46,462 bases of DNA, from positions 1-46,462 of the forward strand of contig CAIVKC010000003.1 in NCBI GenBank assembly GCA_903906365.1, in the 5' to 3' direction. The notes beneath the pieces are model-generated. The model saw only the letters and a program-made list of their open reading frames with translations, ran no database searches and was not told where the DNA came from. Below, piece after piece: positions 38,762 through 46,345 of the stretch. The position numbers were made by a program, and so were the translations under genes. The number at the start of each line of letters is the position of its first letter. The first letter of the stretch is position 1. Source of the stretch: an uncultured Bacteroidota bacterium (lineage in GTDB: Bacteria; Bacteroidota; Bacteroidia; Chitinophagales; Chitinophagaceae).

Positions 38762-40018
38762 TTACATGATTCCGGCCAGTTCCAGGCTTTTTTTCTTTAG
38801 TTTTCTGATTTCGATGTCTTCAATAATGGGCTCGGGTGAAAGGATAAGGGAGGTGTTGTTTTCCCTCCACCAGTTACTTTCCCTTAATTCGTTGAAGGGC
38901 AGAACGCCCACCAGGTATTTGCGCTGGCTTTCTGCATGCCATTCTTCTATCCATTCAAATTTTTCCCTGGGAATGTATTTCCAGTCATCAAAGCTGAGGT
39001 AGGCCTTCACATAGAAGTCATTGGTCAGTTCGTGGGGAATATGATGATAGAGTTTTTTGTATTCATATTTATACTGGTAGCGAAGTGCAGACAGATCGCT
39101 TAATACAGCCGATGCAGTTGGGAAACTTCCCGCACCCTTACCATAGAAGAACTGTTTATCCGCAAAACCGCTCTCAATGACCACTCCATTGTACTCGTTT
39201 TTAACAAACGCCAGATGGTCGTCATGCCGGATGAACTGTGGCAATACAAAGGCGGCTACCTTGCCATTAAGGAGTTTTTTGGCCTGGCCCACCAGTTTAA
39301 TGTCATAATTCTTTTCCCTGGCTACCAGGGAGTCGCCAGCCTGTATGTTTTGAATGCCGGTGAATACCAGTTTTTCCGGGTGGGTAAGGATACCGTATGC
39401 GTGTGTAAGCAGAATGGTCCATTTGTTCACGGCATCATAACCTTCCACGTCGAGTTTTGGGTCAGATTCGGCGAATCCCAGCTGCTGGGCCATCAGGAGC
39501 GCTTCATGGAAGTCCAGTTTTTCCTCAAACATCTTGGTAAGGATGAAGTTGGTTGAACCGTTCAAAATGGCCTTCATGGAGTGCAGCAGGTCATTGTCAT
39601 AGTATTCCTCCAGATTCCTCACCACGGGGATGGAGGCACATGCTGAAGCTTCATACAGCAGGGAACCGCCCGTCTCCTGTTCAAGCCTGAGAAGCTCCGG
39701 TAAATGTTCAGCAAGCATTTTTTTGGAGGCGCTTACCACGGATTTACCATTCCTGAGGGCCGTTGTGACGATCTGAAAAGCGGGTTCTGATTCATTGATC
39801 ACTTCGACGATCACATTGATATCAGGGTCCGACAGTAATTCATTCCTGTCGGTGGTAAATAGTTCAGCGGGCGCATCCCTTTTTTTACCCTTGTTTTTGA
39901 TGCAGACTTTCTTGATGGATGCTTTTAGTGAGGGAGTATGCTGCAATATTTTATAAAGTCCTTCTCCAACCACCCCAAATCCAAATAGCCCGATAGTTAA
40001 CTGTTTGTGTGCTTCCAT
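38762..40018 (-). CDS. hom: Homoserine dehydrogenase
   Basis: A 418-residue enzyme that reduces aspartate semialdehyde to homoserine. The N-terminal Rossmann loop is IGLFGFGVVGEGL. NKKMLAEH-like sequence appears as VSASKKMLAEHLPEL. The substrate-binding signature reads AILNGSTNFILTKMFEE, and GFAESDPKLDVEGYDAVNKWTIL is the family hallmark. It is monofunctional, with no aspartokinase domain and no clear ACT domain. It starts 2 bp after the stop of homoserine O-acetyltransferase, so the two are translationally linked. It is the last gene of the methionine block, supplying homoserine for MetX. Confidence 0.95.
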   Translation of the reverse strand: MEAHKQLTIGLFGFGVVGEGLYKILQHTPSLKASIKKVCIKNKGKKRDAPAELFTTDRNELLSDPDINVIVEVINESEPAFQIVTTALRNGKSVVSASKKMLAEHLPELLRLEQETGGSLLYEASACASIPVVRNLEEYYDNDLLHSMKAILNGSTNFILTKMFEEKLDFHEALLMAQQLGFAESDPKLDVEGYDAVNKWTILLTHAYGILTHPEKLVFTGIQNIQAGDSLVAREKNYDIKLVGQAKKLLNGKVAAFVLPQFIRHDDHLAFVKNEYNGVVIESGFADKQFFYGKGAGSFPTASAVLSDLSALRYQYKYEYKKLYHHIPHELTNDFYVKAYLSFDDWKYIPREKFEWIEEWHAESQRKYLVGVLPFNELRESNWWRENNTSLILSPEPIIEDIEIRKLKKKSLELAGIM

Positions 40019-40020
40019 TA

Positions 40021-41172
40021 TTATGTTGTTATTGCAAATGTATGATGCGCTTTTTCTTGTCTTGTAATAAATTCCTTAATCAGGCTGCCGATCGATTCAA
40101 ATTCGAGCAAAAAGCCGTCATGCCCATATGCCGAATCTATCAATTCAAAACCTGCACCGGGAATATGTTCTGCAATCAGGCGTTGTTCCATGGCCGGAAA
40201 CAGCATGTCCGTTTTTATTCCGATGGCAAGGGTCCTGGCAACGATGGTATGGAGGGCTGCTTTCGCAGAGGTCCTGTTTCGGCCCAGGTTATGGGAGTCC
40301 ATACTCTGGCTGAGGGTATAATAACTGAAAGCGTTGAAGCGCCGGGCAAGTTTTTCACCCTGGTGCCGCTGGTAAGAAGCCGCACCATCCCAGCCGTTTC
40401 CAAAGGGAAAGGAATTGGAACGGGGCTGCCTGCTTTCATAGGTGTCATAATGCCTGTATGAAACAAGGGCCATTGCCCTGGCGGCCTTCATGCCCTCCAG
40501 CCCGGCACGCTCGTTTTTATCTTTCCAGCTGCTGTCAGCCTCTATGGCCATACGCTGGGAGGTATTGAATGCAATGCCCCAGGGAGAATGCGCGGCGTTT
40601 GTAGCGATGGGGAAAATATATTCGAACAGGGTTGGATCTTCCACCGCCCATTCCAATAGCTGCTGACCTCCCATGGAACCGCCTATTCCTATGCGTATCC
40701 TGTCGATTCCCAGGAATGTTTTAAGCGGCTGGTAAGATCGAATCATATCCCTTGGGGTGAAAAACGGAAAATCATGAAAATAGGGCCTTCCTGAAGCCGG
40801 ATTCAAATCCAGCGGCCCAAGGCTTCCATAGCAGCTTCCCGGCATATTTACGCAAATGATAAAATGGGACGCCGGATCAAAAAGCTTCCCCTTTCCCACC
40901 AGTCCTGGCCACCATTCCTCCGGGTTGCTGTTGGCAGTGAGGGCATGGAAAATCCAGACCACATTATCTTTGGCCGCATTGAGTTCGCCCAATGTGTTGT
41001 ATGCCAGGTGATAACCAGGCAGCGTGACCCCAGATTCCAATTCAAACGGGTGGGGATATGTGAACGTTTTTAAAGGCAATATGAATGAATTTTTAATTTC
41101 TTCAGCCCTGCGACAGTCTACTAAGATAATTAAATAACCAAAACCAGCGGTATGAGCCGTTCCGGATATCAT
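40021..41172 (-). CDS. metX: Homoserine O-acetyltransferase
   Basis: An alpha/beta-hydrolase-fold enzyme that acetylates homoserine. Motifs are WIFHALTANSNPEEWWPGLVGKG, the GxSxGG nucleophile elbow as IGGSMGGQQLLEWA, and the closing DSAYGHDGFLLEFE with the catalytic Asp and His. The family N-terminus begins at about LPLKTFTYPHPFELESG. The only in-frame starts are the ATG at 41172 (which adds about 31 non-family residues and lies within a hairpin) and a TTG at 41079. The TTG may be the true start, giving 352 residues. It is followed 2 bp later by homoserine dehydrogenase. The long structured leader suggests post-transcriptional control. Confidence 0.93.
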   Translation of the reverse strand: MISGTAHTAGFGYLIILVDCRRAEEIKNSFILPLKTFTYPHPFELESGVTLPGYHLAYNTLGELNAAKDNVVWIFHALTANSNPEEWWPGLVGKGKLFDPASHFIICVNMPGSCYGSLGPLDLNPASGRPYFHDFPFFTPRDMIRSYQPLKTFLGIDRIRIGIGGSMGGQQLLEWAVEDPTLFEYIFPIATNAAHSPWGIAFNTSQRMAIEADSSWKDKNERAGLEGMKAARAMALVSYRHYDTYESRQPRSNSFPFGNGWDGAASYQRHQGEKLARRFNAFSYYTLSQSMDSHNLGRNRTSAKAALHTIVARTLAIGIKTDMLFPAMEQRLIAEHIPGAGFELIDSAYGHDGFLLEFESIGSLIKEFITRQEKAHHTFAITT

Positions 41173-41259: not shown

Positions 41260-42588
<1,329 letters not shown>

Positions 42589-42676
42589 TTAAAGTTTAAA
42601 ATGTGAATAATGGAAAGATTATTGACTCAGTAAAAATTTCAATGAAAACGGCAAATGCCAGGTATGGGTAATAAGA

Positions 42677-42760
42677 TTATTGTATGCCGCAAGGCATACA
42701 ACAAGCGCAGAAAAAGCCTTGCTGGGGAAGAAAAAGTCCTATTTCGTTTTTATGATTCAT
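42677..42760 (-). CDS. Cys-rich leader peptide upstream of metY
   Basis: A 27-codon frame beginning ATG AAT CAT at 42760 and ending TAA at 42679-42677. The product is MNHKNEIGLFLPQQ followed by GFFCACCMPCGIQ. Four Cys and one Met lie within seven residues near the end. The last codons are built into a perfect 9-bp hairpin with a GCAA tetraloop on the plus strand (42680-42701). It is 94 bp upstream of the metY start. Leader peptides rich in the regulated amino acid are a hallmark of attenuation, so ribosome stalling at Cys or Met codons could control metY. The T-run of a classic terminator is missing, so the mechanism is open. No homologue is known to me. Confidence 0.55.
   Translation of the reverse strand: MNHKNEIGLFLPQQGFFCACCMPCGIQ
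42680..42701 (-). promoter_or_regulatory. Perfect hairpin overlapping the leader peptide codons
   Basis: TTGTATGCC (42680-42688) and GGCATACAA (42693-42701) form a perfect 9-bp stem with a 4-nt loop. On the minus strand it covers the codons for CMPCGIQ. Downstream on the minus strand, GGCATTTGCC (about 42650) could pair with the same ATGCC arm, giving a possible alternative structure. Confidence 0.55.
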
Positions 42761-42839
42761 GAATTCTCGTATACCCAACAAATTTAGTAGGGTTTTTCTG
42801 AATTTCTGCATTCCGGATGGTTTTTTTTATAAAGAATTG

Positions 42840-44018
42840 TTAATTGAAACTGAACTCAGTGCGTATTTTCACCTTCTCCTGTTTCTCAAGTGCCTCTGCG
42901 AGGTCCGCCAGAAGATCATCGGTTTCCTCTAGCCCTACGGAGAGTCTGATTAAACTGTCTGAAACGCCTGCAGACCGGCGCTGCTCGGCGGGAATGGACT
43001 TGTGGGTCATGGTGGCAGGATGACTTAAAAGGCTTTTGATTCCGCCCAGGCTCTCGGCCAGCCTGAAAAGCCGGGTATGGCCAATGAGCTGGTGGGCAGC
43101 TTCCTCAGAGTCTGTTTTAAGGCTGAATGATACGATGCCGCCAAATCCCGAAGATTGTCTGCAGGCAACCTGATGATTGGGATGGGAGGGCAATCCGGGA
43201 TAAAAAACCTTGTCGACTGCGGGATGCTGCTGCAGGAAATTGGCAATGCGCAGGGCACTTGCGCAGTGCTGGCGCATGCGAAGGTGGAGGGTTTCAATAC
43301 CCCGGATCAGCAGCCAGCTGTCAAAAGGGGCCAGTATGCCCCCTGTCGCATTTTGGAAAAAACGGATTTGTTCCCCCAGTTCCTTGTTTTTGGTAACCAC
43401 CAGCCCGGCTATGAGGTCGCTATGTCCACCCAGGTATTTGGTGGCACTGTGCACCACCAAATCCGCTCCCAGCAGGAGGGGTTTCTGGAGGGCAGGCGAA
43501 GCGAAGGTGTTATCCACGCAGAGCAAACAGCCATTTTCGCGGGCAATGGCAGATATCGCCTCGATGTCAGCAATTTTGAGGGTGGGGTTGGTAGGGGATT
43601 CCAACCAGATTAACCGCGTGTGGGGCGTAATTGCCCCGGAGATATTAGCCACATCTGTGGCATCCACATAGGTCACATGGATACCGAATTTCTTATAGAC
43701 TTTTTCAAAAAGGCGGTATGCCCCGCCATAGATATCATCAACGGCGATGATTTCATCGCCGGATTTAAGAAGCCGGATGACTGCATCGATGGCTGCCAGG
43801 CCACTTCCAAATGCAACGCCGTCACTTCCGTTTTCAAGTTCTGCCATGATTTGTTCAAGGGCTGCCCTGGTGGGATTATTGCTCCTGGCATAGTCAAACC
43901 CCTTGTTGATTCCGGGGGCCTCCTGGATAAAAGTGGAAGTTTGATAAATGGGTACTGAAATAGCTCCTGTTAAAGGGTCAATGGGAATACTGTGGATGAG
44001 TTTTGTTGCCGGATGCAT
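42840..44018 (-). CDS. Cystathionine gamma-synthase / gamma-lyase-type PLP enzyme
   Basis: A 392-residue transsulfuration enzyme. MHPATKLIHSIPIDPLTGAISVPIYQTSTF opens the family fold. YARSNNPTRAALEQIMAELENG and the PLP-lysine motif LVVHSATKYLGGHSDLIAGLVV are clear. The C-terminus has LAESLGGIKSLLSHPATMTHKSIP, shared by MetB, MetC and gamma-lyases. Sequence alone does not separate these activities, but the SAM riboswitch upstream and the metY/metX/hom neighbours favour methionine synthesis. The start is ATG 44018. The 5' leader is about 300 nt and contains the riboswitch and its terminator. Gene symbol left blank because metB and metC remain possible. Confidence 0.92.
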   Translation of the reverse strand: MHPATKLIHSIPIDPLTGAISVPIYQTSTFIQEAPGINKGFDYARSNNPTRAALEQIMAELENGSDGVAFGSGLAAIDAVIRLLKSGDEIIAVDDIYGGAYRLFEKVYKKFGIHVTYVDATDVANISGAITPHTRLIWLESPTNPTLKIADIEAISAIARENGCLLCVDNTFASPALQKPLLLGADLVVHSATKYLGGHSDLIAGLVVTKNKELGEQIRFFQNATGGILAPFDSWLLIRGIETLHLRMRQHCASALRIANFLQQHPAVDKVFYPGLPSHPNHQVACRQSSGFGGIVSFSLKTDSEEAAHQLIGHTRLFRLAESLGGIKSLLSHPATMTHKSIPAEQRRSAGVSDSLIRLSVGLEETDDLLADLAEALEKQEKVKIRTEFSFN

Positions 44019-44122: not shown

Positions 44123-44156
44123 CAAAAAAAAGCTCTTCCGAAAGTCAGAAGAGCTC
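44123..44156 (-). terminator. Riboswitch-controlled terminator
   Basis: Stem AGCTCTTC (44131-44138) / GAAGAGCT (44148-44155) with a 9-nt loop, followed on the minus strand by TTTTTTTT. It lies about 40 nt after the riboswitch aptamer and about 105 nt before the cystathionine gamma-synthase start, the place of an expression platform. Confidence 0.85.
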
Positions 44157-44947: not shown

Positions 44948-46345
44948 TTACACTTTTAACCAGTATATACGGAATACCTTGTTTTTTTCTACATAAATAG
45001 AAGAATCATCTATATTGGCTCCATTATGAACCTTTGAAATAATACTACCGAATGACACAACAGGATGACTTGATTTTTCTATTACTTTGAGATTATCAAT
45101 GTACTTTTTCAAATACCTCTTAGCAACAAAACTCTTTTCTAAAAAAGAATGTTTTATGAAAAAATTATTGGTATTTGATTTTTTGTTAAGATAAAGTTCA
45201 GATACTTTAGATATATCATCTTTTTCGGTAGGTCTGCCTTTCTTATCATGACCACAGTATTCGTTTATTGAAATAAATAAATCCTCTTGCTTCAATTTGC
45301 TCTTCCCCTTTTGAATAAATAAAACACTCGTGTTAATACTAATATTAGGGCTAAAAGTTTCAAAAGGCAATTCTACTATAGCAAATAAATTGCCTCTGTC
45401 TAATAAATATTGACGCAGATATTCCTCTTGTTGATTCCCTAATATTCCGCTGGGCAATACCATAGCCATCTTACCACCATCTTTTAAAAGAGACAAACAT
45501 CTTTCAATAAATAAAACCTGTGGCTCTTCCTGTTCCTTTAACTTATTGCCCTTTTCCCATACTCCCGTTTCATCATCAAACTTCCATTTATATCCTACAT
45601 CAAATTGTTTCATTTTATCCGCTCCAACAACGGGTATTTTGCTTCCAAAGGGAGGATTAGTCAATAATATATCAAACTCACCAAGTTTAATTTTTGCTTG
45701 CGTTTCAGGTTTCCAATTACCAGGATTTTCTAAACTGTCCTCACAAAAAATACCTGTTGTACCATCACCAATTAAATTCATGTAGGCTTTAGCAACTTTA
45801 CTTAAAAAGTAATCTTTATCAAGCCCTCTAAAATTTTTGGTAGCTATTTCAATTTTTTTCTTTTCAATTTGTCCATCCTTCCATCCAAGTTTTTGATATT
45901 TTGGAGTTGCTTTATCCCAAACATATTTCAATGCATCTATTAAAAAACCTCCGCTACCACAAGCTGGATCAATTATTTTATCTGTTTCAGTCGGTTGAAT
46001 GACATCAACCATCATTTTAACTACATTTCTTGGCGTAAAAAATTGCCCTTGTCCGCCTTTTAAAGCATGTCCTATAAAAGTTTCAAATGCATCAGCGATA
46101 ACATCTCTCTCGCTATTCATTAGCGAATAATTCTGAAGTTCACCAACTACATAGACTATTGAGTTCGTATCTAATATTATTTTATCTTCTTCGGCTATAA
46201 CCTCTGGCATGTTATTTTTAACTTCTGTAAAAAGATCAATTATTCTTTTTTCAATGTCTTTTGATTTCTCATTTAATCCAGCCCTAAAGGTTACTATATC
46301 TGTAGGGGCTGTAAATTTTTCATCATAGATTTTACAGAATATCAC
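44948..46345 (-). CDS. N6-adenine DNA methylase of a restriction-modification system (partial, frameshifted)
   Basis: A 465-residue N6-adenine methylase of the HsdM type: GHALKGGQGQFFTPRNVVKMMVDV, the SAM motif DPACGSGGFLIDAL, and the catalytic NPPF in DILLTNPPFGS. After about residue 390 a specificity domain begins (VVSFGSIISKVHNGANIDDSS) and is cut by a frameshift at 44982-44988, so the frame ends in the wrong residues FRIYWLKV. The frame begins at a GTG (46345) right after an in-frame TAA at 46358-46360. NVIFCKIYDEKFTAP is an internal family motif, so the N-terminal domain is missing or out of frame upstream. The region is strikingly AT-rich compared with the rest of the window, a sign of transfer. 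No nuclease gene is in view. Confidence 0.88.
   Translation of the reverse strand: MIFCKIYDEKFTAPTDIVTFRAGLNEKSKDIEKRIIDLFTEVKNNMPEVIAEEDKIILDTNSIVYVVGELQNYSLMNSERDVIADAFETFIGHALKGGQGQFFTPRNVVKMMVDVIQPTETDKIIDPACGSGGFLIDALKYVWDKATPKYQKLGWKDGQIEKKKIEIATKNFRGLDKDYFLSKVAKAYMNLIGDGTTGIFCEDSLENPGNWKPETQAKIKLGEFDILLTNPPFGSKIPVVGADKMKQFDVGYKWKFDDETGVWEKGNKLKEQEEPQVLFIERCLSLLKDGGKMAMVLPSGILGNQQEEYLRQYLLDRGNLFAIVELPFETFSPNISINTSVLFIQKGKSKLKQEDLFISINEYCGHDKKGRPTEKDDISKVSELYLNKKSNTNNFFIKHSFLEKSFVAKRYLKKYIDNLKVIEKSSHPVVSFGSIISKVHNGANIDDSSIYVEKNKVFRIYWLKV

Follow-up and report, generated by a model that had tools for sequence, protein, structure and literature searches.

What does a 27-codon, cysteine-rich reading frame do just ahead of metY, the gene for O-acetylhomoserine sulfhydrylase, in an uncultured member of the Chitinophagaceae? 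The frame lies in a minus-strand gene block in which a SAM riboswitch is followed by a cystathionine gamma-synthase/lyase-family gene, a 257-nt gap, metY, metX and hom (Table 1; the window is the whole stretch of 46,462 nucleotides that was analysed). The original prediction read it as a device for amino-acid attenuation, here for sulfur amino acids. Our comparison of sequences indicates that this is a real, conserved Cys-codon leader and very probably a ribosome-mediated attenuator, through which cysteine shortage would switch metY on.

The leader frame and its hairpin

The translated frame ends in FFCACCMPCGIQ and contains the seven-residue stretch CACCMPC, in which, as predicted, four residues are Cys and one is Met. 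Its stop codon lies 94 nt from the metY ATG, in agreement with the predicted spacing of about 94 bp, and the identity of metY is backed by TIGR01326. A longer in-frame start is available at 42811, and the promoter-like motif sits between this start and the one at 42760. The leader peptide has no NCBIfam match.

Hairpin 1, which covers the last Cys codons and the stop codon, consists of 12 consecutive pairs, one of them G-U. Its inner nine pairs are all Watson-Crick and enclose the loop TTGC, which is the perfect 9-bp stem with a tetraloop that had been described. Folded alone, hairpin 1 reaches -15.1 kcal/mol (z -4.4), a value equalled by 0 of 200 shuffles. The fold of the entire 257-nt gap is not outstanding (z -1.7, with 13 of 200 shuffles equally good), and the window's U tail after hairpin 1, TCTTATTACC, is weak.

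The SAM riboswitch that had been proposed for the same gene block was recovered as an Rfam match one gene further up. It is the sole RF00162 match in the window, so that no such aptamer above the gathering threshold was found in the gap before metY; other Rfam families gave no window match at gathering scores. The hairpin after the riboswitch is one of four terminator-like sites found in the region, where 4.0 were expected. Near the contig end, the minus-strand frame at 44948-46345 carries an NPPFG motif and, judged by eye, has the look of a type I restriction-modification N6-adenine methylase.

Table 1. Features of the metY region in the window
Feature	Position	Strand	Basis or remark
Terminator-like hairpin after SAM riboswitch	44130..44156	-	12 pairs and a run of T
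SAM riboswitch aptamer RF00162	44196..44309	-	Rfam match, one gene further up than the leader
Cystathionine gamma-synthase/lyase-family gene, upstream of leader	42840..44018	-	best match NF005810, 522.1 bits, below cut-off 594
Promoter-like motif AACCCTACTAAATTTGTTGGGTA	42772..42794	-	42786-42779 TAAATTTG fits Bacteroidota -7 box TAnnTTTG
Leader frame MNHKNEIGLFLPQQGFFCACCMPCGIQ, then stop	42677..42760	-	27 residues by translation; counterparts in relatives
Leader Cys codons	42709-42707, 42703-42701, 42700-42698, 42691-42689	-	stop codon 42679-42677
Hairpin 1, TTGTTGTATGCC-TTGC-GGCATACAATAA, over last Cys codons and stop codon	42677..42704	-	homologous hairpin in relatives
Weak terminator-like hairpin 2, TGGC-ATTT-GCCG then TTTT (42648-42645)	42649..42660	-	4 bp; candidate only
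metY, O-acetylhomoserine sulfhydrylase	41260..42582	-	NCBIfam TIGR01326, 688.4 bits, cut-off 495.1
metX-like homoserine O-acetyltransferase	40021..41172	-	TIGR01392, 315.6 bits, below cut-off 500
Homoserine dehydrogenase (hom)	38762..40018	-	NF004976, 314.6 bits, above cut-off

Conservation before metY

The leader frame, its Cys run and its hairpin are conserved and tied to metY. We collected the DNA upstream of metY from 150 genes, including the window's own; 149 were usable. The sample is non-random, combining the best-matching genomes with picks that span numerous genera of the family and order. With a loose filter, 85 Cys-rich frames were found that end 45-140 nt before metY, and removal by hand of two false leaders (L106 and L088) gave 83 positive loci; under the filters used, no Cys-rich leader was found in the other 66 of 149. 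Those scored negative include one locus with a hairpin and a Cys frame but no ATG (L043) and one whose frame ends in CGRCMP (L159). Locus L041, in which the metY start was not located, was left out, and a CCCCCMSKDIN frame is visible there.

Runs with at least four Cys in eight residues occur in 65 of 149 metY upstream regions; the reverse strand gives 2 of 149, and shuffling 1 of 1,490 (forward versus reverse strand, Fisher p 6e-21, with kinship ignored). Common endings, each followed by a stop codon, are CCICCCCCMPQGIL, CCCICCMP, CCCCCCMP and CCMCCMPQGIL. The original prediction had staked itself on conservation of the frame and of its Cys codons in related genomes; both the frame and the Cys run are kept before metY across many genera. 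Leader length, the N-terminal half and the number of Cys differ widely among relatives. Within the peptide, conservation is confined to the Cys run, which favours the sensing of codons over a role for the product.

Codon choice bears on the hairpin as well. Across the 83 leaders, the Cys codon directly before Met is TGT 56 times and TGC twice, against 235 to 100 for the other Cys codons (Fisher p 3e-6). The last base of this codon pairs in the stem, so that both the stem and the amino acid are kept. A hairpin near the leader end was detected by a scan in 77 of the 83 leaders. Its inner stem is ATGCC/GGCAT in 43, the compensated ATGGC/GCCAT in 3 and some other sequence in the remainder; GTAA (20) and GCAA (17), both of the GNRA type, are found among its loops. 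The stop codon lies in the loop in 27 of these hairpins, 3' of the hairpin in 38 and in an arm in 12. Covariation of the stem, another check put forward with the original prediction, came out in part: the three compensated stems speak for it, but all three belong to a single genus and the counts give related sequences full weight, which leaves the covariation suggestive only.

Exact matches to the Cys-Cys-Met hairpin (pattern TGYTGYATGCCGYAAGGCAT) were sought in 84,980 species genomes. Of the 55 found, 51 are followed by a metY start on the same strand, at a distance of 79-121 nt. Three others (L186, L197 and L215) lie on sequences that end too early to place metY; L186 is from the same metagenome-assembled genome (MAG) as L220, which sits on another contig and is counted among the 51. 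The last match (L200), inside an open frame of a betaproteobacterial MAG, looks like chance. Isolates that carry a hairpin match include Terrimonas ferruginea, Terrimonas ginsenosidimutans, Lacibacter luteus, Lacibacter cauensis, Parafilimonas terrae and Flavisolibacter ginsengisoli, and the leader is therefore directly testable.

A promoter-like motif before the leader

A motif near YCTAYTANNTTTGTAGRGTA, which includes TAnnTTTG, lies at most 70 nt from the leader ATG in 64 of the 83 leaders, as compared with 8 of 147 reverse-strand control windows. According to the accessible text of PMC9723704, the Flavobacterium psychrophilum -7 box TAnnTTTG is located at -12 to -5. That spacing would put the start of the window's transcript near 42774, which is 14 nt ahead of the leader ATG. 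The distance from the end of the -7 box to the ATG is 7-10 nt in 23 of the 64 motif-bearing relatives and 18 nt in the window.

The window's TAAATTTG lies inside an imperfect dyad, CCCTAC...GTTGGG, which appears as CTAC...GTAG in some relatives. The dyad is longer than a -7 box requires and may therefore be bound by a regulator, conceivably as an Rrf2-type operator. It has one site in its own genome at up to 3 mismatches.

Terminator and antiterminator candidates

When 48 sequences are aligned on hairpin 1, the 12 nt that follow it are rich in A/U and hold hardly any G; C comes next, then G at about +20 to +29 and then U. Of these 48 loci, 14, the window among them, have a second hairpin with a U tail, against a mean of 2.9 and at most 8 over 200 shuffles; reversed sequences as a control gave 8 of 48, which makes the support for a second hairpin moderate only. 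Over all 83 leaders, a terminator-like site follows the Cys run in 28, compared with 3.8% of shuffles, and was not found by the scan in 55.

The original prediction named a downstream GGCATTTGCC as an arm that could compete with hairpin 1. The sequence is present at 42659-42650, but the competition is unsupported: a duplex test with the 5' arm of the window's hairpin 2 was no better than shuffles (p 0.69). Nor is this candidate kept in the two closest relatives, which have CGGCTATTGCCG (L032) and TGGCGTTGACCG (L033). In single, uncontrolled folds, GCGGCA is freed and pairs with TGCCGT of hairpin 2 when the ribosome occupies the run's second Cys codon, and hairpin 2 forms when it is at the stop codon.

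Among 15 loci, pairing of an antiterminator strand with the 5' arm of the terminator beats shuffles in L165 (p 0.014), L170 (0.008), L171 (0/500), L086 (0.012) and L126 (0.002), and is no better than shuffles in the other 10, including the window and five of six loci of genus g30, a genus of the family. L165, L170 and L171 belong to other families of the order, in which 5 of 13 metY loci have the leader. All three have strong U-tailed hairpins (in L165, AATGCCTTTC-GTACGA-GAAAGGCATT-TTTTATACCA), and the g30 terminator, as seen in L104, reads CGGGC-TTA-GCCCG-TTTTT. For 59 family hairpins, pairing with the downstream stretch has a mean z of -0.35 (SEM 0.17) for the 3' arm, slightly better than shuffles, and of -0.58 (SEM 0.20) for the whole hairpin, the latter value being driven by a few loci. 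A general antiterminator in Chitinophagaceae is weak overall across these 59 hairpins, and we set it aside.

Strong downstream pairing is found where the stretch complements the whole hairpin (L071, L074, L079, L090 and L126) or nearly does so (L086). The downstream complement of the whole of hairpin 1 in the first five, for example GCCGTAAGGC with GCCCTTACGGC, could be a separate switch.

Further afield, metY has Cys frames ahead of it in other orders of the class (L268, with MQQPCCMCICCPCC before the stop codon, L270, L274-L279 and L281) and in another class of the phylum (L298, with MKFSIQHTICKPACNCMCMCMMCT before the stop codon, L316-L319, L322, L324-L327, L329, L301 and L297). The 13 leaders of the other class have Met codons mixed among their Cys codons (MCMCMMC) and are followed by a U-tailed hairpin of -12 to -20 kcal/mol. 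Their antiterminator strand begins at -3 to +4 of the stop codon in 10 of the 13, and antiterminator pairing beats shuffles (p at most 0.05) in 9, the exceptions being L319, L322, L329 and L301. A ribosome at the stop codon of classical attenuators covers the antiterminator strand, and in these loci it would do the same. As far as sequence can tell, complete terminator/antiterminator attenuators exist in more distant relatives. Many other loci in the phylum-wide samples have no such Cys frame, and no metY start was obtained for L315 and L330; the loci were hand-picked, so that no frequency for the phylum follows.

Proposed mechanism and alternatives

We consider it likely that a ribosome-mediated attenuator governs metY-metX-hom and that the leader frame serves it as a sensor of charged tRNA-Cys, perhaps of Met as well. 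Transcription would start just upstream of the leader, at the TAnnTTTG box, and a ribosome would translate the leader behind RNA polymerase. With enough Cys-tRNA, the ribosome would read on past the Cys codons and reach the stop codon where hairpin 1 ends; transcription would end before metY. When Cys-tRNA is scarce, it would stall on the Cys codons, which are the 5' arm of hairpin 1, and thereby block the hairpin; the freed 3' arm would prevent downstream termination, and metY would be made. Because hairpin 1 overlaps the region of the stop codon, a terminating ribosome would also mask it briefly. The attenuation logic put forward in the original prediction is backed by the conserved Cys-codon leader and by the complete attenuators predicted in distant relatives, but not by its competing arm, GGCATTTGCC.

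The output of the switch may be simpler than this scheme. Hairpin 1 could itself be the terminator, an alternative that we regard as less likely than not: a stalled ribosome would occupy its 5' arm, alternative pairing and an antiterminator would be unnecessary, and the input and the sense of regulation would be unchanged. A U-rich stretch directly follows hairpin 1 in L034, L054, L032 and L071 (in L034, GTATGCC-GCAA-GGCATAC-TTTAATTTTT), the scarcity of G in the 12 nt past the hairpin in the 48 aligned loci points the same way, and the leader of cysS in the same genome likewise overlaps a terminator-like hairpin. Yet the window's own tail is weak, the ribosome ending at the stop codon would mask this terminator too, and a ribosome that stalls early in a long Cys run would fall short of it. 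Less probable still, and in our view unlikely, is an output through Rho-dependent termination or through the initiation of metY translation, in which the leader merely sets the position of the ribosome. Positions +13 to +18 past hairpin 1 are rich in C and poor in G, 55 of the 83 leaders lack a detected terminator-like site, and mycobacterial Cys leaders have likewise been reported without conserved terminators in the available portion of PMC1262725; against this stand the clear U-tailed terminators of the order relatives and of genus g30, and the terminator-like hairpin before cysS of the same genome.

Readings that dispense with sensing altogether fare much worse. That the product is a functional small Cys-rich peptide, for example a metal-binding one that stands before metY by chance, would account for the strong conservation of the Cys run, but length, N-terminal half and Cys count vary widely, NCBIfam has no match, and the frame goes together with metY and, in relatives, with terminator/antiterminator structure, all of which makes this explanation very improbable. 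Least credible is an accidental frame over an ordinary intergenic terminator or operator hairpin; the hairpin does lie between two genes and scores as terminator-like, but the shuffle and reverse-strand controls, the Cys runs of mixed TGT and TGC codons and the genome-wide scan contradict it.

A SAM riboswitch in series

The most unusual trait of the metY leader is the SAM riboswitch in series with it. RF00162 was detected in 20 of 20 phylum- and class-level leader loci searched with Rfam; in 13 it separates the leader from metY, and in 7 it precedes the leader. The leader of the other class lies upstream of the SAM riboswitch, and the order is reversed in seven loci of the window's class. Within the family, 8 of 20 leader-positive loci searched (of 83) have RF00162 within 600 nt. 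RF00162 was also found in 26 of 59 leader-negative loci searched and in the false-leader locus L106. Thus, leader and riboswitch occur together, alone or not at all, and the two may replace each other between genera. In L055, L062, L082, L087 and other leader-negative loci, metY stands behind a SAM riboswitch.

We would give an even chance to a joint reading in which many Bacteroidota metY genes are read through two RNA sensors in series, one a SAM riboswitch and the other an attenuator built on Cys (or Cys/Met) codons, so that full transcription would occur only when SAM and charged tRNA-Cys are both low. The order of the two sensors would have been swapped between classes, and in Chitinophagaceae the attenuator would have been reduced to a compact hairpin whose GNRA loop contains the stop codon or lies next to it.

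Relation to known leader peptides

The regulatory codons of trp/his-type attenuators lie in the 5' arm of the first hairpin, and their stop codon in or near its loop. The predicted metY attenuator is alike in the regulatory codons of its 5' arm and in a stop-codon ribosome that would cover the antiterminator strand; it differs in amino acid and phylum, and the window's second hairpin is weak.

Leaders built on Cys codons have been described elsewhere. Mycobacterial polycysteine leaderless short ORFs are mentioned as a case of translation attenuation (Canestrari 2020, as cited in the accessible text of PMC13236596). They share with the present case a Cys-codon leader before sulfur genes and cysteine as the signal, which is a predicted signal here; a start at or near the 5' end is a feature of those ORFs that may recur here. 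Unlike them, the present leaders belong to Bacteroidota and to metY, and some relatives have U-tailed terminators and antiterminators. According to the part of PMC1262725 that was available, leaders with a run of Cys precede the cys operons of Mycobacterium and Propionibacterium acnes, as well as cbs of Bifidobacterium longum. These are likewise short frames with a run of Cys codons near the stop codon, reported there without conserved terminator hairpins, whereas here a hairpin lies inside the Cys codons and terminators occur in relatives. By its description in the available text of PMC8632094, the uORFC-8-2 motif before cysS in Rhodobacterales is a Cys-Cys attenuator with Cys codons inside the first stem and a U-tailed terminator downstream; the genome of the window also has a Cys leader before cysS. 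That motif belongs to Alphaproteobacteria and to cysS only, as against mainly metY and Bacteroidota here.

Within the phylum, operons for amino-acid biosynthesis in F. psychrophilum have been suggested to be under leader-peptide attenuation. The main text of PMC9723704 gives no detail on this; it makes no mention of methionine and mentions cysteine once, for a protease. Long 5' untranslated regions of B. thetaiotaomicron contain short frames that have been likened to leader peptides (PMC7366714, accessible text). A 2010 survey, in the portion available, knew leader-peptide systems only from Proteobacteria and Actinobacteria besides its own Firmicutes case (PMC2965389). The original prediction knew of no described system of this form in Bacteroidota. 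No cysteine leader-peptide case from the phylum was found among the matches listed, in a literature mostly without subscription papers and supplements, but leader-peptide attenuation as such had been suggested there (PMC9723704, main text), and the novelty is narrowed further by the Cys-run leaders of Actinobacteria and Rhodobacterales (PMC1262725 and PMC8632094, as far as available). The metY leader adds predicted cysteine attenuation to a phylum in which RNA-level control of amino-acid genes is little described in the accessible literature, and offers a concrete case of a leader peptide and a riboswitch placed serially on one gene.

Cys leaders before other genes

The pattern TGYTGYTGYTGY has 58 matches in the window's own genome. 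Thirty of the 58 were translated and most of the frames have no ATG, those with one being L240, L243, L255, L260 and L265; no long intact frame lies closely downstream of L260. The pattern misses the window's own leader and is therefore a weak search. No Cys leaders were found before cysKM (0 of 25 loci) or cysD (0 of 23), mostly within a fixed 1500-nt flank and with a few loci at contig ends possibly misplaced. All cysE matches are below the family cut-off.

Upstream of cysS, the gene for cysteinyl-tRNA synthetase, we found Cys leaders in 4 of 24 loci and 0 on the reverse strand. One is a second leader in the window's own genome, MKSFRYFCLYSCCRSI (L374, where cysS begins at locus position 1501). 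Its stop codon lies 101 nt upstream of cysS, inside the terminator-like hairpin ATAGGCG-CTGAA-CGCCTAT-TTTTG, whose U-run may also serve as the -7 box of cysS itself. Three genomes of the same genus have the cysS leaders MNPSLLPRFSSQHCCCCKVHVG (L368), MPFLYHPCYCCSVC (L370) and MKFISKTSFSCCCPC (L379), each followed, as in L374, by a stop codon. At the cysS locus L376, a frame with two Cys codons is visible by eye.
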